The notes beneath the pieces are model-generated. The model was not told where the DNA came from, searched no databases, and worked only from the letters and a program-made list of their open reading frames with translations. The position numbers and the translations under genes are program-made. Positions 4,144 through 39,027 of a stretch of 64,000 bases of DNA are shown piece after piece (positions within the stretch are counted from its first letter, which is position 1; every line of letters starts with the position of its first letter). The stretch comes from Catellatospora coxensis (lineage in GTDB: Bacteria; Actinomycetota; Actinomycetes; Mycobacteriales; Micromonosporaceae), in contig NZ_BONI01000002.1 of assembly GCF_016862635.1 (NCBI RefSeq), positions 124,001 to 188,000 on the forward strand, written 5' to 3'.

Positions 4144-4166
4144 CGCCCTCCCCCTCGACAAGGAGC

Positions 4167-18421: not shown

Positions 18422-18429
18422 CGCCGGCC

Positions 18430-18469
18430 GAGGCGGGGCCGTCGACCGAACGGGCGACGGCCCCGCCTC
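18430..18469. terminator. bidirectional hairpin terminator
   Basis: A perfect 15-bp stem (GAGGCGGGGCCGTCG and its complement) with a 10-base loop. It lies between the convergent stops of the pectate lyase (18421) and DUF2804 (18473) genes. Confidence 0.8.
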
Positions 18470-18472
18470 CTG

Positions 18473-19453: not shown

Positions 19454-19520
19454 GGGCGCACGATAGCGCCAGGTCCTGCGCCCTTCCGGCCCGGCCGGAG
19501 CAGGGTCGCGGGTCCGTGGC

Positions 19521-20423
19521 TCACTCCGCGACCAGGGCTCCGGTCAGCGCCGTGAGGGTCAGCGGCAGGGCGAGGTGGTAGCCCTGGGCGAAGGAGACGC
19601 CGACGCGGGCGAGCGCGGCGAGCTGCTCGCGGGTCTCGACGCCCTCGGCGGTGACGTGCAGCCCCAGGGTGTGGGCCATGTCGGTGAGCATCTTGACGAT
19701 GGCGTGGTCGCGCGGGTTGTGCAGCATGCCGGCCACGAACTCCTTGTCGATCTTGATGCCCTGGATGGCCAGGCGGGACAGGTAGCGCAGGTCGGTCGAG
19801 CCCGCGCCCATGTCGTCCAGGGCCACGCTGACGCCGTGGCGGATGAGCTTTTCGAGGCGGGGGCCGGCGTGGACGAGGGTCTTGAGGTCGGCGCCTTCGC
19901 ACAGCTCCAGCCGCAGCCGGTGCGCGGCCAGCCCGGCCTCGCGCAGGGCGGCGGTGACCATGCCGGTGAAGTCGGTCGCCAGGGTGGCCGCGGACAGGTT
20001 GACGTTGACGTGCGCGGGTGCCGCGTGGCCGAGGGACGCGGCGAGCGCGGCCATGTCGGCGCAGGCCCGGTTGAGCACCCAGCGGTCGAGCAGGGCGAGA
20101 TGCCCGCCGTGGTCGGCCGCGGGCAGGAAGCGGTCGGGGGTGATCAGGCCCAGGGTCGGGTGCTGCCAGCGCACCAGGGCCTCCACCGCCACGACCGAGC
20201 GGTCGGCGAGCCGCACGATCGGCTGGTAGAGCAGCCGCAGCTCGCCGTCGGCCACGGCCTGGGCGACGGTGCGTCCGGCCACCTGCGCCGCGTCCTGCGG
20301 GCCGGCGGCGGGACGCCCGCGCCATCGCCTGACCAGGCGCATGAGCGCCCCCAGGTACGGCAGGGTGGCGATGCTGTCGACGAGGCTGATGAACCACAGC
20401 GCCATCGGGATGTGGACGGCCAT
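19521..20423 (-). CDS. EAL-domain cyclic-di-GMP phosphodiesterase
   Basis: A 300-residue protein: an N-terminal hydrophobic helix (IPMALWFISLVDSIATLPYL) followed by an EAL domain. Residues normally needed for metal binding and catalysis are visible: EALVRW, HVNVNLS, RLELCEG, ALDDMGAGSTDL, IKIDKEFV, TAEGVET and the terminal QGYHLA. It should therefore be able to hydrolyse c-di-GMP. No GGDEF domain is present. The start ATG at 20423 follows GGGGAG; a longer in-frame start at 20477 lacks support. Upstream DNA contains two 14-bp palindromes. In actinomycetes c-di-GMP controls development, so a role there is plausible inference. Confidence 0.85.
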   Translation of the reverse strand: MAVHIPMALWFISLVDSIATLPYLGALMRLVRRWRGRPAAGPQDAAQVAGRTVAQAVADGELRLLYQPIVRLADRSVVAVEALVRWQHPTLGLITPDRFLPAADHGGHLALLDRWVLNRACADMAALAASLGHAAPAHVNVNLSAATLATDFTGMVTAALREAGLAAHRLRLELCEGADLKTLVHAGPRLEKLIRHGVSVALDDMGAGSTDLRYLSRLAIQGIKIDKEFVAGMLHNPRDHAIVKMLTDMAHTLGLHVTAEGVETREQLAALARVGVSFAQGYHLALPLTLTALTGALVAE

Positions 20424-20541
20424 CGGAAGGCTCCCCTCGGGCAACGGATGTCGTCCTCGGCGAGGACGTGCTCCCACTGTCGCCGCCGCGGGGTCGCCAC
20501 GAGCCCGTGCCGGGCACTGGTCGATGGCTCGCGGTCGGTTT

Positions 20542-20555
20542 CCCGGGTACCCGGG
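20542..20555. promoter_or_regulatory. 14-bp perfect palindrome upstream of the EAL gene
   Basis: CCCGGGTACCCGGG is fully self-complementary. It lies about 120 bases upstream of the EAL start and 53 bases from a second 14-bp palindrome of related design. Candidate operator for a homodimeric regulator; function is inference. Confidence 0.4.
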
Positions 20556-20608
20556 CCTGCGGGCGGTGTCGCCCGTGGCGACCCAGGGTGCGGGACTGGT
20601 GTCCGTTT

Positions 20609-20622
20609 CCAGGGATCCCTGG
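20609..20622. promoter_or_regulatory. 14-bp perfect palindrome next to the LuxR-type regulator stop
   Basis: CCAGGGATCCCTGG is fully self-complementary and ends four bases from the stop of the LuxR-type gene. It shares the CCNGGG-NN-CCCNGG design with the palindrome at 20542-20555. It could be part of a terminator or a paired operator. Confidence 0.4.
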
Positions 20623-20625
20623 TCG

Positions 20626-23433
20626 TCAACTAGCTGGACTAGATTGAGGAGGTATCCACGGTGTGGCGGGCTCGGTGTCGAGCGCGGCCTCGCGCAGTTC
20701 GCGGCGCGAGTTGATGGCGAGCTTGGTGAACACCTTGCGCAGGTGCCACTCGACCGTACGGGGACTGATGAACAGCTCGGCCCCGATCTCGGAGTTGGTA
20801 CGCCCGTCGCGGGCCAGCGAGGCGATCAGCGACTCCTGGGGTGTGAGGTCGAGCATCGACTCGGCCGTGCGCTTGCGCACCGCCTCCCCGGCGGCCAGCA
20901 GCTCGTTGCGGGTGCGCTCGGCGAACGCCTCGGCGCCCATGACCGTGAACATCTCGTGGGCGCGGCGCAGGTGCTCGCGGGCGTCCGCGCGGCGGTTCTC
21001 CCGGCGCAGCCACTCCCCGTACACCAGGTGCGCCCGGGCCAGGTGCGCGTTCATCCGGCAGGCCGCGAGCCGGTCGATCGCCTCGCGGTAGAGCTGCTCT
21101 GCGGCCGGGCCTTCGCTCAGCAGCGCCCGGCAGCGGGCCTCGATGCCCAACGCCCACCGCGTGCCGCTGGCCTGCGTGCGTTCGGTGAGCTGTGCCAGCG
21201 CCTGTGTCGCGGCGTCGGGCTGCCCGGCCCGCGCTGCGGCCTCCACCAGTTCGGCCAGCGCCCACGACCGGGCCACGAACACGTCGCCGGTGGCGACGCG
21301 TTCGGCGGCGGCCTGCGCCGAGGAGTAGCGACCCAGGCCGTTGTCCAGCACCGCGGCCGCGTACTCGGTCAGCACCAGAGCACTGCCCTCGCCCCGCGGG
21401 AAGGCGTCGGTGATGCCGTCCTGGGTCAGCTGGGCGGTGGCCTGCTGGTCGCCGCGCCACGCGGCCAGCATCAGTGGCGTGTACGGCGGGGGCGACACTT
21501 GGATGGCGGACTCCAGCACGGCGGCCTCGTCGTCGCACGCGGCCGCGGCCGCGAAGTCCCCGGCTTGCACGTAGTAGCTGGCGAGGTAGTCCAGAGCCAT
21601 CGGCAGCAGGCTCAGCTTTCCCGTCTGCCGGGCCGTGCGCACCCTGCGTTCGAGCAGGTCCCGCCACGCTTCTTCCTCCCACAGCTCCGCCGCCACCAGC
21701 GCGGTGATGAGGCAGATCCAGGTGAGGTCCTGCTCGACGGCGCGGACGGCCTCCATCGCTCGCCGCAGGGTGGGCACCGCCTGCGGGTATCCGTCGGTGA
21801 ACTGTATCGACAACCCCTCGAGCAGCAGGTCGACGGGCTGCTGCGAGCCGGGTTCCGACAGCGCGGCGCGGGCTGACTCGGCCACGGTGCGTACGCCGAA
21901 CTCAGGTTCCAGCCGTCCGGCACCGGCGAACACCGCCGCGAGCAGCGCCTCCAGGTAGGTCTCGCGGGCCAGCGCACCGTCCAGCGGGACGAGTCGCTGC
22001 GCGGCGTGCAGCAGCAGGCCGGGCGCCTCGCTGCCGCGGCTGCGCAGGAACGCCAGCTGCGCGCGCAGCCGTTCCAGCCGTGCCTGCTGCAGCCGGTTCA
22101 GCGGACTCAACTGCGCCGTGGCCAGCAGGTCGTTCGCCATGTCGGGCGCGCCGGCGTCGAACGCGGCCTGGGCAGCGGCCAGGGCGCGTTCCCCGCGGCG
22201 GCGCAGATCCGGGGTGAGTTCGGCGGCCCGCCGCAGGAAGGCCGCCGCCGCCGCTTCGCCGCCGCGGGACTGGGCCCGCGCGGCCGAGCGCTCCAGGTCC
22301 TGCGCGACCGTTTCGTCGGGCGCCGGCGTCGCGGCCGCGAGGTGCCAGGCGCGCCGGTCGGGGTCGGCCACGCTGTCGGTCGCCTCGGCCAGGGCGCGGT
22401 GCACCTGCCGGCGTTCGGCGGGCGTGGCCGAGCGGTAGACGGTCGAACGCACCAGCGGGTGGGCGAACCGCACCCGGGTGCCGATCGTGATCAGCCTGGC
22501 CGCTTCGGCGGGGGCTGCCGCGTCTGCGGGCAGGCCGAGCCCGGACGCGGCGCGCCACAGCAGGCCTGGATCGCCGACAGGGTCGGCGGCGGCGACCAGC
22601 AGCAGCCGTCGCGTCTGCGGGGGAAGTTCGCCCAGGCGGCGCAGGTAGCACTGCTCGATCCGGCTGACCTGGCTCAGCGACGGCCGGCTGCGGGGCAGGC
22701 CGTATCCGCCGGCCAGTTCGGGCAGGGTCAGTTCGGTGGGCAGTTCCAGCAGGGCCAGCGGGTTGCCGCGGGCCTCGGCGAGGATCCGGTCGCGTACCCG
22801 CTCGTCGAGCGGACCGGGCACCACCGACGCCAGCAGTGATCGCGCGTCGCGGTCGTCGAGGCCGGCCACCACCAGTTCGGGCAGTCCGAGCAGTTCGCGG
22901 TCGCCGGGCTGGAGTTCGTCCCGAGGCACCCGTACGGCGAAGACGAGACCGATCGGGTCCGCTGTCGGCCGCCGGGCGACGAAGGCCAGGGCCTGGGCTG
23001 ACTCCTGGTCGAGCCACTGGAAGTCGTCGACGAGGCACAGCAGCGGACGGCCGGCTGCCACCTCGGACAGCAGGGTCAGCGCGGCCAGGCCGACCAGGAA
23101 CCGGTCCGGCGCAGGCCCTTCGGCGAGCCCGAACGCGCTGCGCAGCGCGTCGCGCTGCGGGGCGGGCAGGCGGTCGAGCTGGTCGAGCATCGGCCCGCAG
23201 AGCTGGTGCAGGCCGGCGTAGGCAAGTTCCATTTCGGACTCGATGCCGGACACGCGGTGGGTGGGGATGCTCGATGCGTTGTCGGCGAGATAGTCCAGCA
23301 GCGCGGTCTTGCCATCGCCGGTCTCCCCGCGCAGCACCAGAACCGCGTGCCCGCCCTCCCGGATCTCGCTCAGCAGCCGGTCGAGCGCCTCGCACTCGGT
23401 GCGCCGACCGTAGAGCCCTTGACCCGCAAGCAT
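20626..23433 (-). CDS. large LuxR-family (LAL-type) ATPase transcriptional regulator
   Basis: A 935-residue LAL regulator. An N-terminal ATPase module carries Walker A GETGDGKT (residues 36-43) and Walker B-like LLCLVDDFQWLD. A long helical TPR-like middle part follows, and the C-terminus has a LuxR HTH (TPQESLIASLARDGRTNSEIGAELFISPRTVEWHLRKVFTKL, split here only by reading order). Proteins of this type respond to small ligands and activate sugar or secondary-metabolite genes. The start ATG at 23433 lies nine bases after GGGAG; ATG 23442 is too close to that SD. The nearest divergent gene (23653) is a candidate target. Confidence 0.88.
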   Translation of the reverse strand: MLAGQGLYGRRTECEALDRLLSEIREGGHAVLVLRGETGDGKTALLDYLADNASSIPTHRVSGIESEMELAYAGLHQLCGPMLDQLDRLPAPQRDALRSAFGLAEGPAPDRFLVGLAALTLLSEVAAGRPLLCLVDDFQWLDQESAQALAFVARRPTADPIGLVFAVRVPRDELQPGDRELLGLPELVVAGLDDRDARSLLASVVPGPLDERVRDRILAEARGNPLALLELPTELTLPELAGGYGLPRSRPSLSQVSRIEQCYLRRLGELPPQTRRLLLVAAADPVGDPGLLWRAASGLGLPADAAAPAEAARLITIGTRVRFAHPLVRSTVYRSATPAERRQVHRALAEATDSVADPDRRAWHLAAATPAPDETVAQDLERSAARAQSRGGEAAAAAFLRRAAELTPDLRRRGERALAAAQAAFDAGAPDMANDLLATAQLSPLNRLQQARLERLRAQLAFLRSRGSEAPGLLLHAAQRLVPLDGALARETYLEALLAAVFAGAGRLEPEFGVRTVAESARAALSEPGSQQPVDLLLEGLSIQFTDGYPQAVPTLRRAMEAVRAVEQDLTWICLITALVAAELWEEEAWRDLLERRVRTARQTGKLSLLPMALDYLASYYVQAGDFAAAAACDDEAAVLESAIQVSPPPYTPLMLAAWRGDQQATAQLTQDGITDAFPRGEGSALVLTEYAAAVLDNGLGRYSSAQAAAERVATGDVFVARSWALAELVEAAARAGQPDAATQALAQLTERTQASGTRWALGIEARCRALLSEGPAAEQLYREAIDRLAACRMNAHLARAHLVYGEWLRRENRRADAREHLRRAHEMFTVMGAEAFAERTRNELLAAGEAVRKRTAESMLDLTPQESLIASLARDGRTNSEIGAELFISPRTVEWHLRKVFTKLAINSRRELREAALDTEPATPWIPPQSSPAS

Positions 23434-23623
23434 GCCGGACATCTCCCGTGAGGAGCCGTCGACCGGATGCCACCGCAGCCTTGCCGGCCCGGAGCACCGA
23501 CCATCGTTCTCGGGTGTCACCAGCCTATCGCCCGCGATGTCGAGGCCGGGCGGGAACAGGGCGTCCGGCCGGGCGTCGCTCGGGAGACCGCCCCTTGCGC
23601 TGCGGCAACGCACCAGACAGCAT

Positions 23624-23638
23624 GGAAACAGCGTTTCC
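23624..23638. promoter_or_regulatory. inverted repeat before the epimerase-like gene
   Basis: GGAAAC (23624-23629) and GTTTCC (23633-23638) are perfect complements with a three-base spacer, directly before the SD (GGAGG) of the gene at 23653. It also lies in the intergenic space shared with the divergent LuxR-type regulator. Possible operator. Confidence 0.35.
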
Positions 23639-23652
23639 TTTGGAGGTAGTTC

Positions 23653-24495
23653 GTGCGGTACCTGATCGTCGGCTGCGGCAACGTCGGCATGGAACTGGCC
23701 GCCCGGTGGACCGCGGACGGCCACGCCGTCACCGGGACGACCACGACCCCCGACCGGGTGGCGCAACTGCGCGACGTGTGCACGGACGTGGCGGTGCTGC
23801 GCGGCGACGACCGGGACGCGCTCGCCGCCGCGGCGGCCGGGGCGGACGCGGTCGTGGTGACCGTCAGCCCACGCTTCTCCCGCGCGGTCGACCCGGCCCA
23901 GCGCGCCGGCGAGTACGCGCTCGCCCTCACCGCCACCGCGCGCACCGCCGCCGCCGTCCACAACCGGGTCGTCTTCGCGTCGTCCACCTCCGTGTACGGC
24001 CGCTCGCACGGTGCCACCGCTCCGCTGGACGAGGCCGCCCCCACCACCGCCTCGCAGGACGCGTCGCCGGTCAGCTTTCTCGCCGCCGAGCACGCCGCAC
24101 TCGCCGCCGCCCGCGGTGCGGTCGTCCGCCTGCCGGACGTCTACGGGCACCCGCGCGACATCGACTACGTGCGCCGCGTCGAGCTGGCCCACCGGCACCT
24201 GGGCGGGAAGGTGCCGTTCTGCCCCGACGCGCTGCTGTACCGCATCGACTACCGCGACGCCGCGCAGGCGCTGCGGCACGTCGTCGAGCACGGGCTGACC
24301 GGGCTCTACAACGCGGTCCCCGACGGCGAGACACCGCCCACGAACGCCGCCGTGTTCAGGGCGATCACGGCGGCCAACGGCTGGGCCGAACTGGCCTACG
24401 GTTGCGCCGTCGAGGCTCCCGCGGTGCCGGTGTCGTCGGCGCGCCTGCGGGCCACCGGCTTCGCCTTCCGCCACTCGACCACCATGACGGCCTGA
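23653..24495 (+). CDS. NAD(P)-dependent epimerase/dehydratase-like (extended SDR) protein
   Basis: A 280-residue Rossmann protein. The N-terminus MRYLIVGCGNVGMELA is an NAD(P)-binding GxGxxG-type motif, and SSTSVYGRSHG places the Ser and Tyr of atypical SDRs, but the usual YxxxK lysine is not evident: the corresponding region reads SFLAAEHAALAA. That pattern fits the YeeZ/atypical SDR branch, where catalysis is unproven. RLPDVYGHPRDIDYVRRV and IDYRDAAQAL resemble substrate-loop segments of that branch. The start is GTG 23653 with a clear GGAGG SD. It is divergent from the LAL regulator. Confidence 0.75.
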   Translation: MRYLIVGCGNVGMELAARWTADGHAVTGTTTTPDRVAQLRDVCTDVAVLRGDDRDALAAAAAGADAVVVTVSPRFSRAVDPAQRAGEYALALTATARTAAAVHNRVVFASSTSVYGRSHGATAPLDEAAPTTASQDASPVSFLAAEHAALAAARGAVVRLPDVYGHPRDIDYVRRVELAHRHLGGKVPFCPDALLYRIDYRDAAQALRHVVEHGLTGLYNAVPDGETPPTNAAVFRAITAANGWAELAYGCAVEAPAVPVSSARLRATGFAFRHSTTMTA

Positions 24496-24609
24496 CCCGG
24501 CCACCAGGCAGTTCGGCTCGCCCTTGGCATGGCCACAAGCGATGGACGACGGGCGGCTGCTTCGACTTGCCGCCGTTCCGATACTCGGCGGCGGGCATAC
24601 ACTGCCGCC

Positions 24610-25164
24610 GTGAGCCGGAAGAGCTTCTACGACCTGCGTTTCGGTGTCGCCCCGGGCGGCGCCCGCAAGGACGCCCACTACCTGCGCGGCACCCTCGACG
24701 AGGTCAAAGCCGACCTGGCGGCCGAGCTCGCCGACGGCGGCAACCTGTACCTGCTCTGCTGGTACGGCGCGGACCTGGCGCTCGACGTCTACCAGCACGG
24801 CAGGCGCACCCGGTCGATCGACCTGCACCCGTTCGTATCCATCGACGTCGAGGGCTATCCCCGGATCACGTTCACCGGGCCGGGCAAGCCGGTCGGGCAC
24901 GACTTCAGCTCCGAGCAGGAGCAGAGCGTCGACGACGGCAGCCTGTCGGACCTGCTCTTCATGGGCGCGGTCGAGCAGGTGACCACGGTGACCGTCGACT
25001 GGGCCGCCGTCGACGTGCCCGCGCTGCGCGGGGAGCCGGCCCGGCCCGGCGACCTCGTCATCATGGACGAACGGATGGTCGGGGACGCCGAGGCTGACGA
25101 AGCCCGCGAGCAGGCGATGCCCGAAGCCGAGATGCGGTACGGCTACACCGACTTCGAGGCGTGA
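24610..25164 (+). CDS. hypothetical protein (184 aa)
   Basis: A soluble acidic protein starting at GTG 24610 (VSRKSFYDLRFGVAPGG) and ending RYGYTDFEA. It has normal codon bias and no signal peptide or membrane helix. A weak alpha/beta pattern is visible (GNLYLLCWYGADLALDVY, SIDLHPFVSIDVEG). An in-frame ATG at 24529 would add an Arg-rich segment that looks non-coding. I recognise no family. It converges on the GH5 membrane protein gene. Confidence 0.65.
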   Translation: MSRKSFYDLRFGVAPGGARKDAHYLRGTLDEVKADLAAELADGGNLYLLCWYGADLALDVYQHGRRTRSIDLHPFVSIDVEGYPRITFTGPGKPVGHDFSSEQEQSVDDGSLSDLLFMGAVEQVTTVTVDWAAVDVPALRGEPARPGDLVIMDERMVGDAEADEAREQAMPEAEMRYGYTDFEA

Positions 25165-25167
25165 CCC

Positions 25168-25184
25168 GGGCTCAGCAGGAGCCC
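25168..25184. terminator. short hairpin between convergent genes
   Basis: GGGCTC (25168-25173) and GAGCCC (25179-25184) with a five-base loop, immediately after the stop at 25164. A weak candidate terminator. Confidence 0.3.
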
Positions 25185-25251
25185 CCGGCAAACGTGTGTG
25201 CCCCGGGCGTGGGCGGCCCGTTTCGAGCAGCCGCCCGCGCCGACCGCACAG

Positions 25252-27822
25252 TCATCGGGTGACGGTGACCGTGTACGTGCCGCGGGCGCAGCCGGTGACC
25301 TGCCAGCCGCCGGGCACCTGCGCCGATGCCGCGCCGGTGACTCCCTGGGTGGCCAGCCGGACCGGCGCTTCGCCGGGCACCCAGATGTCAAGCTCGCAGT
25401 TCGCCTCGGTGTCGGCCGTCGCGGCGAACGTGAGGGTCCCGTTCACCGGGTCGGCGGTGAGCGTTTCGAGCCGGCCGGGGAACGCACGCGGGTACGCCCT
25501 GGTCAGGGGCTGGCTGAAGCCGGTGGGCGGGACGATCGGGGCACCGGTCACACAGTCGATCTTGGCAAGGTTGCCTGACGTCTTGGCGTCGGGGCCGGTC
25601 TCCGGCGAGCCGCACCCCTGCTTCCACACCCAGAACGCGCCGCCGATGCCGAGCCGGTCCTGGGCCGCGCCGAAGCGGGCCACCTTCGCCCCGTCGACCG
25701 CCGGGTCGCCGAACCAGCCCCACTCGCCGGGCCAGTACGCCGCGCCGTAGGCCGCCGCGGCTCGCGCCGACACGGTCAGGTTCCGCTCGATCGAGGCGAT
25801 GGTCAGCCCGAAGCCCTGATCCATCGTGATCGACTCGCTGTAGGGGTGGGGCGCGAAGACCAGCTGCCGGTCGTCGGTGAAGCCCGGCGGCGGTGTCACG
25901 TCGAAGGCCAGGCCCGACCAGAGCACGCTCGGTTCGAAGAAGACCAGATGCGCGAAGCCCTGCCCGGCCTGCTCGGCCTCGCGGATCGCGGTGATCGCCG
26001 CGTCGTAGTAGCGGCCCAGCAGCAGCCCGGAGCTGATCGGCGGGTTCGCGCCGATGCCGGGCTCGTTGAGCAGGTCGTAGCCGGCCACGGCCGGCTCGTT
26101 CGCGAACGCCCGCGCCACGAACGCCCAGGTGCGGACGAGTTCGCTCTGGATGCCGTCGCGGTCGGTGTAGAAGTTGCCGAACGCGGTCGCGACCGCCGGG
26201 GCCAGGTCGCGGGCCAGGAACTGGCAGTGCGCTGTCCCGTCGGTGACGGTCGCCCAGGCCGGTGCGCCGTCCCAGCCGGTGGTGGGGCTGGTGCCGCCGC
26301 CGCACTGCTCGTCCGGTTTGGCCAGGGCGTTGCCCCAGGCGTCCTGGTGCATGTCGAGCACGACGTAGACGCCGTGCGCCTTGGCCTGCGCCACGGCGGT
26401 GCTGATCTGCTGCAGGTACGCCTGGTCGAACTCGCCGCGCCGCGGCTGCAGCCGCGACCAGGACATGCCGAGGCGTACGACGTTGAAGCCCATGGCGGCG
26501 ATCTGGGCGAAGTCGGCGTCGGTCAGCGGCTCGGTGGCCGGGATCGCGGGATCGCGCAGGTGGTAGTCGATGAGCTGGTTCACGTTGACGCCGCGCAGGA
26601 TCACCTGACGGCCGGTGACGTCACCGATGACGGGCAGCCCGCCGGTGTCCGGCGCGGGGAGCAGGTGCAGTCGCTGCATGCCCTCCGCCGCCGCCACCGG
26701 TGCGACCGGACGCGGCGCGGGAGCCGCGTAGGACCTGATCAGCAGCGGCAGTGCCGCCAGCAGCACGACGACGGGCGCGGCCACCAGCCGCCGCCGGGGT
26801 ACGGCGGCGAGCGCCGCCCGCCACCGCCAGGCCGCGCCCGCGACGACCGCGGCGATCAGCCCGACCGTGGTGCCGTAGCCGATGCCGGTCCCTGCGCTGA
26901 GCAGCGTCGTGCCGATCCACCAGCTGTCCGGGCCGTCGGCAGGTCCGGCCGGGGAGGACAGCGCGGCCCCGACGGCGCAGACCACACCGGTCGCGAGCCC
27001 GGCCACGGTCGCGGCCGACCAGACCGTCACGGCCACGACGGTCGGGGCGGGGTTCGCGAGCCGCCGCCGCATCGCCCGGACCGTCACGCCGAACACGCCG
27101 AGGAAGACGGCCAGCCCGCACAGGTAGCCGACGGGCCCGGCGGATGCGCTGGGCGCGAGCAGCGCACCCGTGAACGCGTACCCGGCCGGCCCGCCCCGCC
27201 ACCACGACGCGCCGAAGGTGACCGCCGCGAGCGTCACGACCACGAACATGACCGCCATGGCGAACCCGGCGACGGGAACGGACCGGTCCGGGTCGTCGGC
27301 GGCCTCGTCTGCCGGGCCGAACCGGTATGCGAGCGCCGCCGCGGCGGCGACCAGCGGGCCGGCGAGCAGGAACTTGAGCGCCGCGAACCCGCTGGTGGCG
27401 AACGCGAACCGCAGGGTGAGGCCGACCGGCAGGTGCGGGCCGGTCAGCGGGGCGGCGGCGGCCAGGCCGGTGACGGCGGTGGCCAGCGCGGCCGCACCGA
27501 CGACCGAGGTCCAGGTGATGAGGAAGACCCACCATGCCGGTCGCTTCGCCCGGCTCGCGCCGATGGTGAGGATCGGCATGACCGCGGCGGCGAGCAGGAC
27601 CGGCAGCCCGACCAGCAGCGGAGCCCAACGGTAGACGCCACCGGCGCCCAGCGGCGGCAGGCCGCGCCCGCCGACCGGTGCCAGCAGGCCGGAGGGATCC
27701 CCGACGGCGCCTGCCGCGACGACGGCGGCGAGCATGACGGCCGCCGCGACGGCGGCACGGCCTGCGGGACGGCGCAGCATCGAACGCCGCGTCGTGGGGC
27801 TCGGTGAGGTCAGGACGCTCAT
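25252..27822 (-). CDS. polytopic membrane protein fused to a GH5-type glycosidase
   Basis: An 856-residue protein in two halves. Residues about 22-375 hold roughly nine to ten hydrophobic helices with short loops. Residues about 385-800 form a GH5-like barrel: GVNVNQLIDYH, FNVVRLGMSWSRLQP, YVVLDMHQDAWGN, acid/base E587 in YDLLNEPG and nucleophile E700 in YWPGEWGWFG, in an order typical of endoglycoceramidase-like GH5 enzymes. A small beta domain follows. The catalytic part is expected on the outer face of the membrane. The substrate could be a glycolipid or another membrane-linked glycan; that is inference. The start ATG at 27822 is the first good one and leads straight into a basic N-terminus. 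Confidence 0.8.
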   Translation of the reverse strand: MSVLTSPSPTTRRSMLRRPAGRAAVAAAVMLAAVVAAGAVGDPSGLLAPVGGRGLPPLGAGGVYRWAPLLVGLPVLLAAAVMPILTIGASRAKRPAWWVFLITWTSVVGAAALATAVTGLAAAAPLTGPHLPVGLTLRFAFATSGFAALKFLLAGPLVAAAAALAYRFGPADEAADDPDRSVPVAGFAMAVMFVVVTLAAVTFGASWWRGGPAGYAFTGALLAPSASAGPVGYLCGLAVFLGVFGVTVRAMRRRLANPAPTVVAVTVWSAATVAGLATGVVCAVGAALSSPAGPADGPDSWWIGTTLLSAGTGIGYGTTVGLIAAVVAGAAWRWRAALAAVPRRRLVAAPVVVLLAALPLLIRSYAAPAPRPVAPVAAAEGMQRLHLLPAPDTGGLPVIGDVTGRQVILRGVNVNQLIDYHLRDPAIPATEPLTDADFAQIAAMGFNVVRLGMSWSRLQPRRGEFDQAYLQQISTAVAQAKAHGVYVVLDMHQDAWGNALAKPDEQCGGGTSPTTGWDGAPAWATVTDGTAHCQFLARDLAPAVATAFGNFYTDRDGIQSELVRTWAFVARAFANEPAVAGYDLLNEPGIGANPPISSGLLLGRYYDAAITAIREAEQAGQGFAHLVFFEPSVLWSGLAFDVTPPPGFTDDRQLVFAPHPYSESITMDQGFGLTIASIERNLTVSARAAAAYGAAYWPGEWGWFGDPAVDGAKVARFGAAQDRLGIGGAFWVWKQGCGSPETGPDAKTSGNLAKIDCVTGAPIVPPTGFSQPLTRAYPRAFPGRLETLTADPVNGTLTFAATADTEANCELDIWVPGEAPVRLATQGVTGAASAQVPGGWQVTGCARGTYTVTVTR

Positions 27823-27924
27823 GGTGAACGCGAATCTTAATCGCGTAATAGCGCCGGACTCGCCCTCGGTTCGGCCCGTCGACGGGCACCGTCCCGCCCG
27901 TGCCTACCGCCGAACGGCTGAGGA

Positions 27925-28353
27925 TCAAGGCTGCCCTGTTCGGCGCAGGACGAGGGTCACGTGGGCACCGGAGTCGTCGTGTACGAAAGTGATCTGTCCG
28001 GTCAGGCCCGCCAGCTGGCCGGTGCCCGAGCCGGGCACGATGTGCCCGAAGGCGTGGGGGATGTCGTTGTCGTCGAGCCCGCAGTGCTGGAAGACCAGGG
28101 TTCCGGTCCGGCCCTCGATCGCGCCGACGAACCGTTCGGAGGCCACATAGCCGCGGCCGTCGGGACCGGCCGCAGTCAGGACTTCGGCGACGCTGGTCCC
28201 GTCGACGACCCCGCGGAAGGTCTTCCGGACGACGACCCGGGCCAGGGCCGGGCCTTCGCCGGGCTCGTCGTAGACGGTGGGCTCCCACCCGGTGACCTCG
28301 AACTCCGTGGTGAGCGTCCGTGTGTCGGCGGTGGTGCTGGTCGGCTTCGTCAT
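27925..28353 (-). CDS. DUF3224 family protein
   Basis: A 142-residue protein with the DUF3224 layout: TTEFEVTGWEPTVYDEPGEGPALARVVVRKTFRG, GRGYVASERFVGAIEGRTGTLVFQHCG, then GTGQLAGLTGQITFVHDDSGAHVTLVL. The family is a small beta-barrel (allene-oxide-cyclase-like) whose role is unclear. The start ATG at 28353 is chosen because the family begins here. It is divergent from the gene at 28494, with a 140-bp shared promoter region. Confidence 0.85.
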   Translation of the reverse strand: MTKPTSTTADTRTLTTEFEVTGWEPTVYDEPGEGPALARVVVRKTFRGVVDGTSVAEVLTAAGPDGRGYVASERFVGAIEGRTGTLVFQHCGLDDNDIPHAFGHIVPGSGTGQLAGLTGQITFVHDDSGAHVTLVLRRTGQP

Positions 28354-28493
28354 GAGGTGACCGTATGGGCCGGCCGTCGCGGGCGTCTTGAAGATTCGCG
28401 CCAACCTCGCGAGGTGATCAACGCTCGAAGCAGGCCGTGCGGCACCCGCAGCCGGGACGACGCCAGGCGGCGCACAAGGCATAGGTTGGCACC

Positions 28494-29381
28494 ATGGCGC
28501 GAGTACGCGAATTCCCCATCGTGATCGAACATCCGATCCGTGGTGTGCAGGCGTACCTGTCCAGCCGCGGCGGGGTTCGGCCGTATGCCCTGGCCTCGGC
28601 GGACTTCGAGCCGCTGCCGGTCGGCGAGGACCGCACGGACGCGCTCGCGTTCGTCGACGAGGTGCCCGCGGGCGAGCTGCCACCGGAGTTCGCGGCGGCG
28701 TTCGGCGCGGGTGCCCTGGCTGAGCTGCGCCAGTGGTCCCGCGGTGGTGTCCCGCCGTATGCGCTGCGCGTCCGGCTACGCGACGCGCGCTGGCGCGAGG
28801 GTGAGTCGAGCGAAGCGGGCTTCGCGTGGGCCGGGCGGCGTGCGGCATTCGAGGCCGTGCGGTGCATCGAGAACCGTGACCGGCCCCGCCTGTTCGTGTT
28901 CCGCTGGCCGGCGCCGCGCACGGCCACGTTCTCGCCGCCCGGACACGACGTCCCGCAGGACTGGACGAGTCCGGCGTTCCGGCCGATCCGAGATGTCCAC
29001 GTACGCCTGGTCACCACTGCCGCCTGCGGGATGTTCGCGGTGGCCACCGCCGACTTCGAACCGCTCGCCCCTGAATCCGGGCTGCTCTTCGAGTTCGTGT
29101 GCGAGCTCGCCGACAGCCGCCTGCCGCACGTGTTCGCCGAGGCCTTCGAACGTGGCGCGCACGAGTCGCTCTGCGCCTTCGGCACCAGCCGGCTGCCCAC
29201 CGTGGCGGTGCGGGTCCGCCTCCACGACGCGAAGTGGCACGAGGTCGACTCGTCGGAGTACTACTTCACCGACGCCGGCCGCCGAGCCGCCGCCGAAGCG
29301 TTGCGCTGCCAGGTCGAGGGCGGCCCACCCGTCCCCCTGGACCGCTTGTCGGCCCGCTGGCCCGAGTCGGCCGAAACGTGA
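28494..29381 (+). CDS. tandem EF-G domain IV-like protein (no GTPase)
   Basis: A 295-residue protein made of two similar modules, about residues 17-123 and 166-271. Each repeats the pattern YA/FAVATADFEPL, an EF/F strand, a helix (LPPEFAAAFGAGALAEL; LPHVFAEAFERGAHESL), VRVRLRDARW/VRVRLHDAKW, then SSE and AGRRAA. This matches domain IV of elongation factor G, whose hallmark ends H-x-VDSSE-x-AF; module 2 has WHEVDSSEYYF (VDSSE at 251-255) and module 1 a diverged GESSE (103-107). No G domain or domains II, III and V are present. Function is unknown; ribosome or translation-factor mimicry is inference. The start ATG at 28494 is the first in frame after the divergent promoter region. Confidence 0.7.
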   Translation: MARVREFPIVIEHPIRGVQAYLSSRGGVRPYALASADFEPLPVGEDRTDALAFVDEVPAGELPPEFAAAFGAGALAELRQWSRGGVPPYALRVRLRDARWREGESSEAGFAWAGRRAAFEAVRCIENRDRPRLFVFRWPAPRTATFSPPGHDVPQDWTSPAFRPIRDVHVRLVTTAACGMFAVATADFEPLAPESGLLFEFVCELADSRLPHVFAEAFERGAHESLCAFGTSRLPTVAVRVRLHDAKWHEVDSSEYYFTDAGRRAAAEALRCQVEGGPPVPLDRLSARWPESAET

Positions 29382-29442
29382 CCCGGCAACGGCCTTTCTG
29401 GCGGGTACCCAGGCCGGACACGGGCCGCTACTGTGCCCGATC

Positions 29443-30264
29443 ATGGACGCCCTCATCGTCTGCCTGTGGATCTGCGCCGGCGCGTGCGCCGCGACGTGGC
29501 TCGCCTCCCTGATCACCGACGAGCACTCGTGGGTGGACCGGATCTGGTCGATCATCCCGGTGGTGTACGTCGCGGTGTTCACCGCCGCGGCCGACTTCGC
29601 CGACACCCGGCTGAACGTGCTCGCGGTGCTGGTGCTGCTGTGGGGCGCCCGGCTGACGTTCAACTTCGCCCGGCGCGGCGGCTACGCGCCCGGCGGTGAG
29701 GACTACCGCTGGGCGATCCTGCGGGCGCGGCTGCCGCGGTGGCAGTTCCAGCTGTTCAACCTGCTGTTCATCACGGTGTACCAGAACATCATCCTGCTGC
29801 TGATCGCCCTGCCCGCGTACACGGCGCTGACGCACCCGAGCCCGTTCGGCGTGCTCGACGCCGTGCTCGCCGTGGTGTTCCTGGGGCTGCTCGCCGGGGA
29901 GACCGTCGCCGACCAGCAGCAGTGGGACTTCCACCGGCGCAAGCACGCCGCGATCGCCGCGGGCGAGCCGCCGCAGTCGCGGTTCCTGCGCACCGGGCTG
30001 TTCCGGTACTCGCGCCACCCCAACTACTTCTTCGAGCAGGCGCAGTGGTGGGTGGTGTTCGGTTTCGGGGCCGCCGCGGCCGGTTCGGTGCTGCAGTGGA
30101 CGGTCATCGGCCCGGTGCTGCTCACCGCACTGTTCATCGGTTCGACGATGTTCACCGAGAGCATCACCCTGTCCCGCTACCCGGAGTACGCCGGCTACCG
30201 CGCGGTCACCTCGCCGATCGTCCCGTGGCCGCCGCGGCGTAGTGGCGCGGCCGATCGGGTCTGA
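29443..30264 (+). CDS. DUF1295 family membrane protein (steroid 5-alpha-reductase-like fold)
   Basis: A 273-residue integral membrane protein with about seven hydrophobic helices. The C-terminal region carries the family signature FRYSRHPNYFFEQAQWW followed by TMFTESITLSRYPEYAGY, as in DUF1295 and isoprenylcysteine methyltransferase/5-alpha-reductase relatives that use NADPH or SAM near the membrane surface. The substrate is unknown. The start ATG at 29443 begins right where the first membrane helix starts; upstream in-frame sequence belongs to the overlapping preceding region and is not coding. A strong hairpin follows the stop. Confidence 0.87.
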   Translation: MDALIVCLWICAGACAATWLASLITDEHSWVDRIWSIIPVVYVAVFTAAADFADTRLNVLAVLVLLWGARLTFNFARRGGYAPGGEDYRWAILRARLPRWQFQLFNLLFITVYQNIILLLIALPAYTALTHPSPFGVLDAVLAVVFLGLLAGETVADQQQWDFHRRKHAAIAAGEPPQSRFLRTGLFRYSRHPNYFFEQAQWWVVFGFGAAAAGSVLQWTVIGPVLLTALFIGSTMFTESITLSRYPEYAGYRAVTSPIVPWPPRRSGAADRV

Positions 30265-33585: not shown

Positions 33586-33633
33586 ATCCGGCCGTACCGG
33601 CGGGTAGCGGACGAGCCCGTTACCGTTGCCCGC

Positions 33634-35487
33634 GTGCAAGGGGAACCGGGAGCGACGTTCGGATTCTCGGTGCTCGGCTCCGTCAGGGTCCATCGCGCCG
33701 GTGCCGAGCTGACGCTGGGCGGCCGCCAGCAGCGCCTGGTGCTGGCGCTGCTGCTGGCCCGGGCGGGTGCACCGGTCTCCCTGGCCGAGCTGGTCGACCT
33801 GCTCTGGGACGAGCAGGCCCCGGCCAGCGCCGTGAACGTCGTGCACCGCCACATCGGGGAGCTGCGGCGGCTGCTCGAACCCGGCCTGCCCACGAGATCC
33901 GCGGGCGGGCACCTGCTGCGGGAGCTGTCGGGTTACCGGCTGCGCGCCGACGAGCAGTCCCTCGACCTGCTGAAGTTCCGGTCGCTGAGCCGCTCGGCGC
34001 GCCGCAGCCTGCAGGACGGCGACCCGGAGTCGGCGCTGCGGCACGGCCTCGACGGGCTGGCGCTGTGGCGCGGCCGGTGCGCCGCGGGCCTGGAACCTGC
34101 CTCCCGGCGGCACCCGGTGTTCCTGGCCGTGGAGGCCGAACGCGCCCAGACCGTGCGGGAGGCCGCCGACGCCGCCGAGCGGTGCGGCCGGCTGGGCGAG
34201 GTGCTGGCACCGCTGCGGCAGGCCGCCGAACTGCACCCGCTCGACGAGTCGCTGCAGAGCCGGCTGCTGCTGGCGCTGGCCGCCGACGGCCGCCAGGCCG
34301 AAGCGGTCGAGGTGTACCGGACGGTGCGGCACCGGCTCGCCGATGACCTGGGCGTCGAGCCGGGCGAGGAGCTGCGGGAGGCGTACGACCGGCTGCTGCA
34401 CCAGCGCACCACGCCCGCGCCGGCCGGGCCGTCGTCGACGCTGCCCCGGCCCGCGCAGCTGCCGCCGGACCTGCCCGCCTTCCACGGCCGCGACGAGCTG
34501 ATCGCCGAGGCCCGGGCGGCTGCCGCGCGGCCGGGCGGTCCGGCGGTGCTGGCGATCGACGGCATGCCGGGGATCGGCAAGTCCGCCCTGGCCGTCCACC
34601 TCGCGCACGGGTTGGCCGCGAGCTACCCCGACGGTCAGCTGTACGTGGACCTTCGAGGCCACGGCCGGGAGCCGGCGATGGGCGCGGACGAGGCGCTGCG
34701 CGGCTTCCTCGGCTCGCTCGGGGTGCCCCGCGACGGTGTTCCCGCCGAGCTGCACGCCCAGGCGGGCCTGTACCGCAGCCGGCTCGCCGGGCGGCGGCTG
34801 CTGATCGTGCTGGACAACTGCCGAGACGCCGAGCAGGTCCGGCACCTGCTGCCGGGCGGGCCGGGCTGCCTGGTGATCGTCACCAGCCGCAGCCGGCTGG
34901 CCGCCTTGCAGACCACGGCCGGAGCGCATCCGCTGCCGGTCGGCCTGCCCAGCGCCGGCGAGGCCCGGGCGATGCTGCTGGACCTGCTCGGCGGGCGCGG
35001 CCCGGCGGACCCGGCCGCGGTCGACGCCGTCGTGGCCGCCTGCGGGCGGCTGCCGCTCGCACTGGCCATGGCGGCCGCCCGGGTGACGAGTGGGCCGCCG
35101 ACACCGCTCGACGCCGGTTCACCCGCCGGCCTGGACGGTTTCGACGGCGACGATCCGCAGACCGGGCTGCGTGCCGCGTTCTCCTGGTCGTACGAGGCGC
35201 TGTCCGGCCCGGCGGCCCGGCTGTTCCGGCTGCTGCCGCTGTATCCCGGCCCTGACATCGCGGTGGCCGGGGCGGCGGCCCTGGCCGGTGTCGCGCCGCG
35301 GGTCGGGCGGGCGCTGCTCGGGGAGCTGAGCCGCGCGCACCTGGTCAGCGAGGATCTGCCGGGCCGCTTCCGCGCGCACGGCCTGCTGCTGGCCTATGCC
35401 GCGGAGTTGGGCGAGGACGGCGACAGTCCTGCCGAGCGAGCGGCGGCACGGCTGCGCGGCCTGCAGTTCCACCGGGCCGCCTGGTAG
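33634..35487 (+). CDS. BTAD/NB-ARC regulator (AfsR/SARP-like), short form without TPRs
   Basis: A 617-residue regulator. An OmpR-type winged helix (about 8-95, LGGRQQRLVLALLLARAGAPVSL, VVHRHIGELRRLLEP) is followed by a bacterial transcriptional activator domain (about 100-255) and an NB-ARC ATPase with Walker A GMPGIGKSALA and RLLIVLDNCRD as Walker B. The protein ends soon after the winged-helix part of NB-ARC (RFRAHGLLLAYAAELGED) and lacks the usual TPR array. The start GTG at 33634 sits seven bases after a TACCGT -10-like hexamer, so the mRNA may be leaderless. It follows the ECF42 gene by 48 bases. Confidence 0.87.
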   Translation: MQGEPGATFGFSVLGSVRVHRAGAELTLGGRQQRLVLALLLARAGAPVSLAELVDLLWDEQAPASAVNVVHRHIGELRRLLEPGLPTRSAGGHLLRELSGYRLRADEQSLDLLKFRSLSRSARRSLQDGDPESALRHGLDGLALWRGRCAAGLEPASRRHPVFLAVEAERAQTVREAADAAERCGRLGEVLAPLRQAAELHPLDESLQSRLLLALAADGRQAEAVEVYRTVRHRLADDLGVEPGEELREAYDRLLHQRTTPAPAGPSSTLPRPAQLPPDLPAFHGRDELIAEARAAAARPGGPAVLAIDGMPGIGKSALAVHLAHGLAASYPDGQLYVDLRGHGREPAMGADEALRGFLGSLGVPRDGVPAELHAQAGLYRSRLAGRRLLIVLDNCRDAEQVRHLLPGGPGCLVIVTSRSRLAALQTTAGAHPLPVGLPSAGEARAMLLDLLGGRGPADPAAVDAVVAACGRLPLALAMAAARVTSGPPTPLDAGSPAGLDGFDGDDPQTGLRAAFSWSYEALSGPAARLFRLLPLYPGPDIAVAGAAALAGVAPRVGRALLGELSRAHLVSEDLPGRFRAHGLLLAYAAELGEDGDSPAERAAARLRGLQFHRAAW

Positions 35488-36153: not shown

Positions 36154-36279
36154 GACGCACCCGGCCGGGCCGCGGTTCCGGCGTACGGCCAAGTTCACAG
36201 CGCCGCGAGGCCCGCACCGCACCCGGGGGGAGCCCTGCCACGCTACGGCGATCGTGATGACCACCCGGATCGCCCCGAC

Positions 36280-39027
36280 ATGACCGGCCCGCTGACCTTC
36301 GCCGTCCTCGGCCCGGTACGGGCCTGGCACGGCCGGTCCGAGATGGACCTCGGCACCAGGCAGCAGCGGCTGATCCTCGCGCTGCTGCTGGCCCGTGCCG
36401 GTGGCGCGGTCAGCGTCGCCGAGTTCGTCGACCTGCTCTGGGAGTCCGATCCCCCGCCGAGCGCGGTCAACGTGGTGCACCGGCACGTCGGCATGCTCCG
36501 GCGGCGCTTCGAACCGGACCTGCCGACGCGCTCGGCAGGCTCGGTGCTGGTCCGCGACGGCGCGCAGTACCGGCTGCGGATCGACGAGCAGTCACTGGAC
36601 CTGCTGCGGTTCCGGCGCCTGGTCGCCGAGGCCGCCGACAGCTCCGGCGAGGCTGCCGTCGAGCTGTACCGGCAGGCGCTGGCGCTGTGGCGCGACCGGT
36701 GCGCCTCGGGCCTGCACACCGACGGCCGGACCCATCCCGAGTTCGTCGCCGTCGACGGCGAGCGGTTCACCGCCGTGCGGGCGGCGACCGACGCGGCGTT
36801 GCGGGCCGGGTGCGTGCACGTGGTGCTGCCGGCGATCCGGCTGGCCGCCGAGTACGAGCCGCTGGACGAGGCGCTGCAGGCGCGGCTGCTGCTCGCGCTG
36901 GCCGCGGACGGCCGGCGGGCCGAGGCGCTGGCGGCGTACGCGGGCATCGAGCACCGGCTCGCCGACGAGCTGGGCATCCAGCCGGGCGCGGAGCTGCGCG
37001 CGGCCCGCGACGGCCTGCTCGACCACGACGCCGCGGCGCCGGGCCCGGCCGAGCCGCCGGCGCAGTTGCCGGCCGACCACCCGTACTTCACCGGCCGCCG
37101 CGACGTGATCGCCGCGGTGGAGGAGCTGCTGGCCGGTGGGCAGCGGACCACGGCGCTGGTCGTCGACGGGATGCCGGGCGTCGGCAAGACCACGCTGAGC
37201 GTGCACCTGTCGCACCGGCTGGCCGACCGCTACCCGGACGGTCAGCTGCACGCGGACCTGCGCGGGTTCGACTCGGGCGAGTCGGCGATGACCCCGGCGG
37301 AGGCGCTGCGCGGGTTCCTGTGGTCGCTGGGGGTCGCCCCGTCGGCGATCCCGGCCGAGCTGCACGCCCAGGCGGGGCTGTACCGCAGCATCCTGGCCGA
37401 GCGCCGGATGCTGATCCTGCTCGACAACTGCCGGGACTGGGACCAGATCCGGCATCTGCTGCCGGGTGCGGGCGGCAGCCTGGTCATCGCGACCAGCCGA
37501 CGCCGGATCGCGGGCGCGGCCGGTGCGGCGGGCGCGTTCGCGCTGCACCTGGATGTGCTCAGCGACGACGAGGCGCGCGAGCTGCTGACCCGGCGGCTCG
37601 GTGACGCGGTGGCCGCCGACCCGGCCGCCGTCGGCGAGATCATCGTGCGGTGCGGGCGGCTGCCGCTCGCGCTGGCGCTGGTCGCGACGCGCAGCGTGGG
37701 CCGGTCGGGGCTGAGCCTGCCGGCGGTGCTGGGTGAGCTGGCCGAGGCCGACGGCCGGCTGTCGGGCTTCGGTGACGCGCACGCCGACCTCGAGGCGATC
37801 TTCTCCTGGTCGTACCGGGCCCTGACGCCTGACGCGGCACGGCTGTTCCGGCTGCTGCCACTGCACCCGGCCGGTGGGCTGAGCACGGAGGCGGCGGCGG
37901 CGCTGGGCGGGGTGCCGCTGCGCGCGGCCCGGGGCCTGCTCGCCGAGCTGGGGGCGCAGCTGCTGGTCGAGCCGGGCGAGGGCCGGTGGCGGATGCACGA
38001 TCTGCTGCGCGCGTACGCCGCCGAGCTCGGCGAGGAGCACGACGGCGCGGCCGAGCGGGCTGCGGCTGTCACGCGGCTGTACGACTACTACCAGCTCAGC
38101 GCGTACGCGGCGCATCTGCTGCTGCTGCCGCAGGTGCCGCTGCCGGAACCGGAGCCGTCGGCGCACGGGGTGACCGCGCGCGGGTTCACCGGCCGGGCCG
38201 ACGCGACGGCCTGGTTCGCCGCCGAGCAGCGGGTGCTGACCGAGGTCGTCGCGCGGGCCGCGCGGCGCGGCCGGCCGCGTACGGCGTGGCGGATCGCGCT
38301 GGCGATGCAGAACTTCTTCCAGGACACGGCCCAGTTCAAGCAGTGGACGGCGGTGGTCGGCACAGGCCTGGCCGCGGCCGGCGACGATCCGGCCGCGCGG
38401 GCGCTGCTGCACCGCAGCCTCGCCGGGGCGTGCTACTTCCTGGCCGATCTGGACGGCGGGCTGTCGCACCTGGAGCAGGCCCGGGAGATCTTCGACCGGC
38501 TGGGTCTGCACGCCGAGCAGGGCCATGTCGAGAACAACATCGCCGAGATCCGGTTGGAGCAGCGGCGTTACGCCGACGCGGTCCGGCACGCCGAGGCGGC
38601 GCGGGAGCTGTTCCGGGCCGCCGGCAACGTGCGGGGCGCGACGACCGCGCTGCTGGCGATCGCGCGGGCGCAGGGCTGGCTGGGCCGGCACGCGCAGGCG
38701 CTGGGCATGTTCGCGCAGGCGCAGCGGCAGTTCGAGGTGCTCGGCGACCTGCACGGGGTGGGCACGACGCAGGCGTGGATGGCGCACACGTACTCGATGA
38801 TCGACGACCTGCCGCACGCGATGGCGATCTGGGAGCAGGCGGTCGACACGTTCCGGGGCGCCGGGGCCGCGCACCACACCGCGGAGGTGCTGGTCGCCGT
38901 CGGTGACGTGCATGCCGGCAACGGTGAGGCGGGCCTGGCCCGGCGGGCGTGGCGGGAGGCGCTGGCCGAGCTGGACGGCACGGACTCGCCGGTGGCCCGG
39001 CAGGTCCGGGACCGGCTGGCCCGGTGA
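36280..39027 (+). CDS. full-length BTAD/NB-ARC/TPR regulator (AfsR-like)
   Basis: A 915-residue regulator with the complete AfsR layout: OmpR-type winged helix (about 1-95, LGTRQQRLILALLLARAGG), BTAD (about 100-250), NB-ARC (about 265-590; Walker A GMPGVGKTTLS, Walker B RMLILLDNCRD, FSWSYRALTPDAARLFRLLPLHP), then TPRs (about 680-905) such as LEQARGIF-like repeats and HVENNIAEIRLEQRRYADAVRHAE. Proteins of this kind integrate phosphorylation or ligand signals and activate secondary-metabolite or sporulation genes. The start is ATG 36280. It is closely related in its first 500 residues to the products at 33634 and 42483. Confidence 0.92.
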   Translation: MTGPLTFAVLGPVRAWHGRSEMDLGTRQQRLILALLLARAGGAVSVAEFVDLLWESDPPPSAVNVVHRHVGMLRRRFEPDLPTRSAGSVLVRDGAQYRLRIDEQSLDLLRFRRLVAEAADSSGEAAVELYRQALALWRDRCASGLHTDGRTHPEFVAVDGERFTAVRAATDAALRAGCVHVVLPAIRLAAEYEPLDEALQARLLLALAADGRRAEALAAYAGIEHRLADELGIQPGAELRAARDGLLDHDAAAPGPAEPPAQLPADHPYFTGRRDVIAAVEELLAGGQRTTALVVDGMPGVGKTTLSVHLSHRLADRYPDGQLHADLRGFDSGESAMTPAEALRGFLWSLGVAPSAIPAELHAQAGLYRSILAERRMLILLDNCRDWDQIRHLLPGAGGSLVIATSRRRIAGAAGAAGAFALHLDVLSDDEARELLTRRLGDAVAADPAAVGEIIVRCGRLPLALALVATRSVGRSGLSLPAVLGELAEADGRLSGFGDAHADLEAIFSWSYRALTPDAARLFRLLPLHPAGGLSTEAAAALGGVPLRAARGLLAELGAQLLVEPGEGRWRMHDLLRAYAAELGEEHDGAAERAAAVTRLYDYYQLSAYAAHLLLLPQVPLPEPEPSAHGVTARGFTGRADATAWFAAEQRVLTEVVARAARRGRPRTAWRIALAMQNFFQDTAQFKQWTAVVGTGLAAAGDDPAARALLHRSLAGACYFLADLDGGLSHLEQAREIFDRLGLHAEQGHVENNIAEIRLEQRRYADAVRHAEAARELFRAAGNVRGATTALLAIARAQGWLGRHAQALGMFAQAQRQFEVLGDLHGVGTTQAWMAHTYSMIDDLPHAMAIWEQAVDTFRGAGAAHHTAEVLVAVGDVHAGNGEAGLARRAWREALAELDGTDSPVARQVRDRLAR

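Follow-up and report, generated by a model that had tools for sequence, protein, structure and literature searches.

In EF-G, GTP hydrolysis and most of the docking to the ribosome depend on domains I, II, III and V; domain IV extends into the decoding centre and contacts tRNA and mRNA as translocation proceeds. Whether domain IV can act alone is an old question of molecular mimicry. Two of its residues, His583 and Gln507, contact the backbone of the A-site tRNA during translocation, as stated in the available part of one report (PMC8505512). Tet(M) and Otr(A) are ribosomal protection proteins related to EF-G, in which the tip loops of domain IV are changed for a different job at the decoding centre (PMC4342817, partial text). 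No account of free-standing domain IV proteins was found in the open-licence PMC literature, and the accessible portion of a report on a Stenotrophomonas phage lists an ORF with an EFG_IV domain (ORF170) as having no homologues (PMC9025141).

The locus described here lies in the window, a 64,000-nucleotide stretch of DNA from Catellatospora coxensis. It encodes a protein that shares with domain IV of EF-G (TIGR00484) the fold, the order of elements and tip loop II (WHEVDSSE in the window protein, YHEVDSSE in EF-G). The protein differs from EF-G in lacking the GTPase and domains II, III and V, in carrying two modules in tandem, and in tip loop I, which reads AACGMF or GGVRPY instead of GGxGQ[FY]. 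With Tet(M) and Otr(A) it has in common an EF-G-derived domain IV with changed tip loops, whereas those proteins are whole GTPases; the NCBIfam scan of the window protein listed no tetracycline-protection family, and the five-domain GTPase layout is not found in it. The features are listed below, where module 1 is the N module, module 2 is the C module, and the columns corresponding to E. coli residues 507 and 583 are equated from the alignment.

28494 to 29381, plus strand: gene of the two-module free-standing domain IV protein, 295 amino acids, ATG start
28536 to 28874, plus strand: module 1, residues 15-127, with a diverged tip (Pfam EFG_IV 29.5 bits; AlphaFold and Foldseek on the N half)
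28560 to 28586, plus strand: tip loop I of module 1, residues 23-31, SSRGGVRPY (alignment; Gln507 counterpart deleted)
28791 to 28814, plus strand: tip loop II of module 1, residues 100-107, WREGESSE (alignment; Arg101 is the His583 counterpart)
28875 to 28985, plus strand: linker, residues 128-164 (pLDDT mostly low in AlphaFold)
28986 to 29318, plus strand: module 2, residues 165-275, the better conserved domain IV fold (Pfam EFG_IV 42.7 bits; AlphaFold; Foldseek)
29013 to 29036, plus strand: tip loop I of module 2, residues 174-181, TTAACGMF (alignment; GGxGQ of EF-G replaced)
29235 to 29258, plus strand: tip loop II of module 2, residues 248-255, WHEVDSSE (alignment; His249 is the counterpart of EF-G His583)

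The sequence-only reading had described a frame of 295 residues made of two domain IV-like modules with no GTP-binding or other EF-G domain, and this description stands. The ORF is present on the plus strand as claimed, and the motifs quoted for it are in place: WHEVDSSE at residues 248-255 with VDSSE at 251-255, AGRRAA at 113-118 and 261-266, and GESSE at 103-107. Antisense ORFs overlap the gene in the window. An ATG occupies the equivalent aligned place in all five two-module genes, the start codons having been picked by hand and some frames having an earlier possible start. This shared ATG position, together with dN/dS of 0.31-0.75 in 10 of 10 pairs of these genes (rough values from a simple counting method on high-GC genes), indicates that the frame is a real gene despite the antisense ORFs. 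The two modules have net charges of +1 and -6, that is, they are not basic, and a signal peptide is not evident by eye in the window protein.

Two tandem domain IV modules, and only these, make up the protein. EFG_IV (PF03764) is the sole Pfam family that passes: against a cut-off of 24 bits, the whole protein scores 67.9 bits in two stretches (E 9.1e-19), the N half (residues 1-149) 29.5 bits (7.2e-7) and the C half (residues 150-295) 42.7 bits (5.7e-11). The single further Pfam family, Lipase_C, falls below its cut-off. The top NCBIfam score is that of EF-G2 (NF009377), with 72.9 bits against a cut-off of 890, and EF-G (TIGR00484) scores 55.7 bits against 659.4; both matches cover the domain IV region only, and the protein is far under every EF-G cut-off in NCBIfam. 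Neither collection finds in it the G domain or domains II, III and V of the EF-G/EF2 translational GTPases. In a phmmer search of PDB sequences, residues about 173-283 match EF-G domain IV (best 3.3e-9). The modules also resemble each other, with identities at 55 of 130 aligned positions and a score of 194 (the best of 300 shuffles reached 57), and the same likeness recurs within four two-module homologues (z 14 to 38).

AlphaFold predicts the order strand-strand-strand-helix-strand-helix twice, in residues 15-127 and 165-275. Mean pLDDT and pTM are 68.3 and 0.51 for the whole protein and 63.9 and 0.67 for module 1 alone; the input alignment holds four rows (the window and three named Streptomyces), so that confidence in the models is only moderate. 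Foldseek searches of the PDB gave 67 matches at E up to 0.001 with the whole model and again 67 with module 1 by itself; the best E values were 7.4e-8 and 3.3e-7, respectively, and the module 1 matches had TM-scores of 0.46-0.66 normalised by query length. In each case 50 of 50 among the matches listed are EF-G. Among those matches, no unrelated fold ranks above EF-G domain IV, and superposition on domain IV is obtained. Module 1 had been read as the more diverged of the two, in agreement with its lower EFG_IV score and altered tip loop II.

The same two-module protein occurs in four further species at 57-65% identity to the window protein. One is a congener of the window genome (G008; 60% over the match, P0002), and the others are Streptomyces netropsis, Streptomyces sp. 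S465 and S. rubellomurinus. A peptide-pattern scan with two patterns over 84,980 species, a set that may omit the window's own genome and near relatives, gave these three Streptomyces loci as the only ones confirmed from 254 pattern matches. The two-module protein is patchily present across two actinobacterial families. A split or broken EF-G was considered and is ruled out by the pairwise dN/dS and by two other long frames bearing domain IV in the window genome. These EF-G frames, of 706 and 728 aa, have an intact loop I (KQTGGSGQ and KQSGGHGQ), and a P-loop pattern is found in the former and not in the latter.

Detached domain IV proteins also exist as single modules. In the census, a profile of the modules was used on which free-standing members outscore EF-Gs, and all counts are lower bounds, weaker members falling under the cut-offs. 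The sample of the window's own family holds at least 7 of 300 genomes with a free-standing domain IV, two-module in G000 and G008 and single in G009, G111, G149, G125 and G274. Of 394 genomes sampled from the class, seven pass 3e-25: six with free-standing proteins (window included) and one, G670, with an EF-G. At the same threshold 32 of 295 genomes of the Streptomyces sample pass: 20 are single-module, one is two-module (G674, the same locus and protein as in S. netropsis, on which the assignment of this sample to Streptomyces is based), and 11 are EF-G, of which nine were read and two, G845 and G965, checked separately. The family that contains G585 (f31) gave 8 of 150 at 1e-24, with five EF-Gs and three free-standing proteins (G585 single; G491 and G994 two-module). 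With a broader model (A5, 1e-26), the phylum (346 genomes) and order (348) samples yielded no free-standing domain IV besides the window's own; the remaining hits, in 15 of 346 and 5 of 348 genomes, are all 20 EF-Gs with intact loop I. Six plasmid records match; the one examined, a linear plasmid of Streptomyces, carries a single module that is free-standing. EFG_IV is matched at E up to 1 by each of the 11 modules in alignment A5; the whole two-module protein of L072 has no Pfam match at 0.001, though its second module matches EFG_IV (E up to 1). Four Streptomyces singles lie within open frames of 484-761 codons, which makes frame length alone a poor guide. The window protein belongs to the two-module branch of this patchy actinobacterial family.

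The family is partly mobile. In G274, a single-module gene (L044 1504-1872, minus strand) lies inside a 1,437-base element (L044 568-2004) that has 25-nt inverted ends, 92% complementary, and the DUF4096 and DDE parts of an IS4/5-type transposase, a family name that goes beyond the Pfam label by inference. On one side of the gene is the transposase and on the other the right terminal inverted repeat, so that gene and transposase are enclosed together as in an insertion sequence (IS) with a passenger. G111, where the element is internally deleted, and G009 have related elements that lack the gene: the transposase end runs directly into a right end that is like that of G274 at 22/25 and 20/25 bases, respectively. 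These gene-less elements indicate that roughly 500 bases of the G274 element, which include the domain IV gene, are inserted where transposase and right end would otherwise adjoin. In G111, G149 and G125 a domain IV gene is kept with parts of the element, and in G009 the shared block is essentially just the gene. The likeness to IS4/5-family passenger elements is seen in the G274 relative. The window gene has no transposase among its three scanned neighbours (DUF3224, DUF1295 and cellulase-domain), and none of the 13 inverted pairs in 27850-29480 has arms flanking the gene on both sides; enclosure with a transposase by terminal inverted repeats is therefore not found there.

A tree of 73 rows was built from 42 free-standing modules and 31 EF-G domain IVs, the latter a hand-picked subset of the 69 read. 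Among the former are 19 of the 20 singles of the Streptomyces sample (G823 was left out), the single of G709 and the plasmid single. A branch with 96/91 support (88/91 in an earlier 71-row tree) has all the EF-G rows on one side, and the free-standing rows would form one group if the root lies among the EF-Gs. Singles from the window's family sit on a long branch and have the least certain placement (94/75). In the five two-module proteins, N modules form one clade (100/99) and C modules another (100/98), and the two are sisters (97/87), which points to one duplication before these proteins diverged. The N modules of the f31 two-module proteins group within f31; a second duplication there is only suggested, a single clade of all N modules having an AU p of 0.16. 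These f31 proteins (L072 1075-1944 and L138, in G491 and G994) are divergent, and their N module is without VDSSE. As to the donor, two groupings have AU p 0.46 and 0.50 and the third, in the best tree, has support 28/9, and EF-G1, EF-G2 and a third EF-G class appear not separable by trees in this role. This third full-length class occurs in Streptomyces and relatives (L111 1258-3294, minus strand, and similar loci among L046-L114). In all 13 of its aligned rows, loop I reads GGAGQ and tip loop II has KDSSE or KDSSD where VDSSE would stand; the one member scanned passes the EF-G cut-off.

A small gene with a patchy distribution could be a chance leftover of EF-G decaying without selection. Such an origin is, however, highly improbable for five two-module genes that share one architecture, 57-65% identity to the window protein and the dN/dS range given above, and whose free-standing family stands apart from 31 EF-G domain IVs (96/91); in the window protein, Pfam and NCBIfam find no trace of the remaining EF-G domains.

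Each of the 42 free-standing rows has a rebuilt tip loop I. All 31 EF-G rows carry the second Gln of GGxGQ, as opposed to 0/42 of the free-standing ones. The five two-module proteins have lost the Gln507 counterpart by deletion in 10/10 modules; among the singles of Streptomyces 8/21 keep it, and among those of the window's family 0/5; in f31 it is kept in 1/2 singles, 2/2 C modules and 1/2 N modules. A loop I Cys is found in every module C of the five proteins (Cys178 in the window) and in 21/21 Streptomyces singles, 26/26 in all. Tip loop II is changed in module 1, whereas module 2 and the singles for the most part preserve it. The His583 counterpart is retained in 4/5 C modules (window included), 20/21 Streptomyces singles and 5/5 window-family singles, and, within f31, in 2/2 singles, 1/2 C modules and 2/2 N modules, the last having lost the VDSSE that follows. 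In module N of the five proteins it is lost in 5/5, replaced by Arg (4) or Ala (1). The window protein does not combine Gln507 and His583 counterparts. The lost second Gln, the deleted Gln507 and the replaced His of module 1 count against simple mimicry of EF-G. In contrast, the retention of loop II and of the His583 counterpart (4/5 in module 2, 20/21 in Streptomyces singles) partly favours the role that had been guessed from the sequence (ribosome binding, mimicry of tRNA or EF-G, or recruitment elsewhere).

The best explanation, held tentatively and at somewhat under an even chance on these sequence comparisons, would be a GTPase-free action at a place, or on a partner, that domain IV of EF-G ordinarily engages, with the decoding centre as the likeliest. 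The window protein would occupy the domain IV site or partner surface without GTP, its likeliest target being the 30S A site or decoding centre. Module 2 would be the contacting module, through loop II (WHEVDSSE), and module 1, with its altered tip, may act as a scaffold or affinity arm. In such a role the protein would modulate or protect ribosomes on occasion, for instance idle or stalled ones, and would not be a translocase. With domains I, II, III and V absent, an isolated domain IV may bind the ribosome very weakly, which speaks against this explanation. The remodelling of loop I in 42/42 rows, the deletion of Gln507 in 10/10 modules and the absence of a basic charge also count against a ribosomal site.

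The genomic setting of the window gene bears on its role. Its divergent upstream neighbour encodes a DUF3224 protein, its downstream neighbour a DUF1295 protein, and a cellulase-domain (GH5) protein is encoded farther upstream. The DUF1295 gene is found in 11 of 11 genomes of the genus. Aligned DNA was compared with eight relatives, four of which (G001, G002, G007 and G008) had too little flanking match to judge. In G006, the cellulase and DUF1295 matches are spaced by 605 bases as against 1,476 in the window, which indicates that the stretch holding the domain IV and DUF3224 genes is absent there. In G003 and G010 about 75 bases separate the DUF1295 match from sequence that corresponds to window 18001-18444, and in G004 the DUF1295 match is 1.6 kb away from sequence corresponding to 18001-19485. 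The window gene is accessory and lies within a variable stretch. On a larger scale, 11 kb of the window (18445-29400) are missing beside the DUF1295 gene in the congeners G003 and G010 and mostly missing in G004, and this interval is likely an insertion/deletion hot spot.

An operon partner was sought by blastp (1e-8) among the five two-module loci, each of 15-22 kb, and only the gene itself and antisense frames were common. The sole exception is a frame of S. rubellomurinus (3963-4754) with a 30% match to window frames 33586-35484 and 36154-39024; the matched frames are several kb from the domain IV genes. No ribosome, stress, resistance, toxin-like or antitoxin-like gene was common to the five loci in this comparison. 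The lack of a common partner argues for a self-sufficient protein. Absence of the stretch with the gene from the corresponding place in G003, G004, G006 and G010, the patchy family and the IS-borne relative would suit a protective or conditional role. A viral or phage origin was also considered and rejected: there is no confirmed match in viral_contigs, and PHROGs gave nothing better than E 0.049. Phage records produced 14 matches at E up to 1, and the one examined, in Moraxella phage Mcat7, is a complete 708-aa EF-G ORF and hence not a free-standing module.

The same accessory, partner-free distribution and IS-borne relative would suit a defensive decoy, whose imitation of the domain IV surface would draw off proteins, toxins or small molecules that attack or bind EF-G domain IV, sparing EF-G itself. 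The binding step has a precedent in FusB, whose primary site on EF-G is a patch on domain IV, according to the available part of the source (PMC4725979). Retention of the fold, while the tRNA-touching tip loop I of EF-G is not retained, also agrees with a decoy. On the other hand, no family among the PADLOC-DB anti-phage defence models matches P0001 or P0003 at E up to 1, and no toxin-like gene is common to the two-module loci. We know of no toxin in these genomes that targets domain IV. A decoy is judged unlikely. An inhibitor or toxin, whose two domain IV heads would block the A site and arrest the cell itself or its competitors, follows the same ribosome-site logic as the best explanation, and an IS passenger could in principle be addictive. 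However, no antitoxin-like gene is common to the two-module loci and no signal peptide is evident by eye, and this possibility seems very slight. It is conceivable, if doubtful, that a domain IV so detached, at least once duplicated and once loaded onto an IS would amount to a GTPase-free device protecting the ribosome or EF-G, a portable mimic of the decoding-centre contact, or a decoy, traded among actinobacteria like a resistance gene. Detached domain IV proteins may point to an agent acting on EF-G domain IV. The natural set of one- and two-module proteins, with loop II kept or changed and one member IS-borne, makes the question of whether domain IV can act alone testable with small soluble proteins.

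A different setting is observed among the single modules of Streptomyces. Of 19 such genes examined, 10 have a methylmalonyl-CoA-mutase-type gene just ahead of them, no more than about 110 bases away from the match, the Pfam identity of the mutase having been checked at one of the ten loci. Apart from three close pairs and some matches of 29-33%, no neighbour is common to the nine other Streptomyces loci and G709. The ten mutase-linked singles are not a clade and surround, partly with weak support, a clade without the mutase neighbour; the mutase-adjacent place may be the older one in Streptomyces, tree support for this being weak. Under recruitment elsewhere, the domain IV fold would have lost its link to translation and would bind, for example, RNA or another enzyme as a general-purpose module; this would agree with the mutase linkage as well as with the rebuilt loop I (42/42) and the Cys at one place in 26/26 (21 Streptomyces singles, five module 2 copies). 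Yet the mutase-type neighbour is absent from the nine other Streptomyces loci, from G709 and from the two-module loci, and the degree to which loop II is preserved goes well beyond the needs of a generic scaffold; recruitment is possible and rather doubtful. For the best explanation, action at the ribosomal site of EF-G domain IV, the metabolic neighbour of 10/19 singles and the lack of a shared ribosome, stress or resistance neighbour are points against. At the mutase-linked loci (L130 4278-5984 and nine further Streptomyces loci), frames of 133 aa and 170 aa lie farther upstream, in conserved order.
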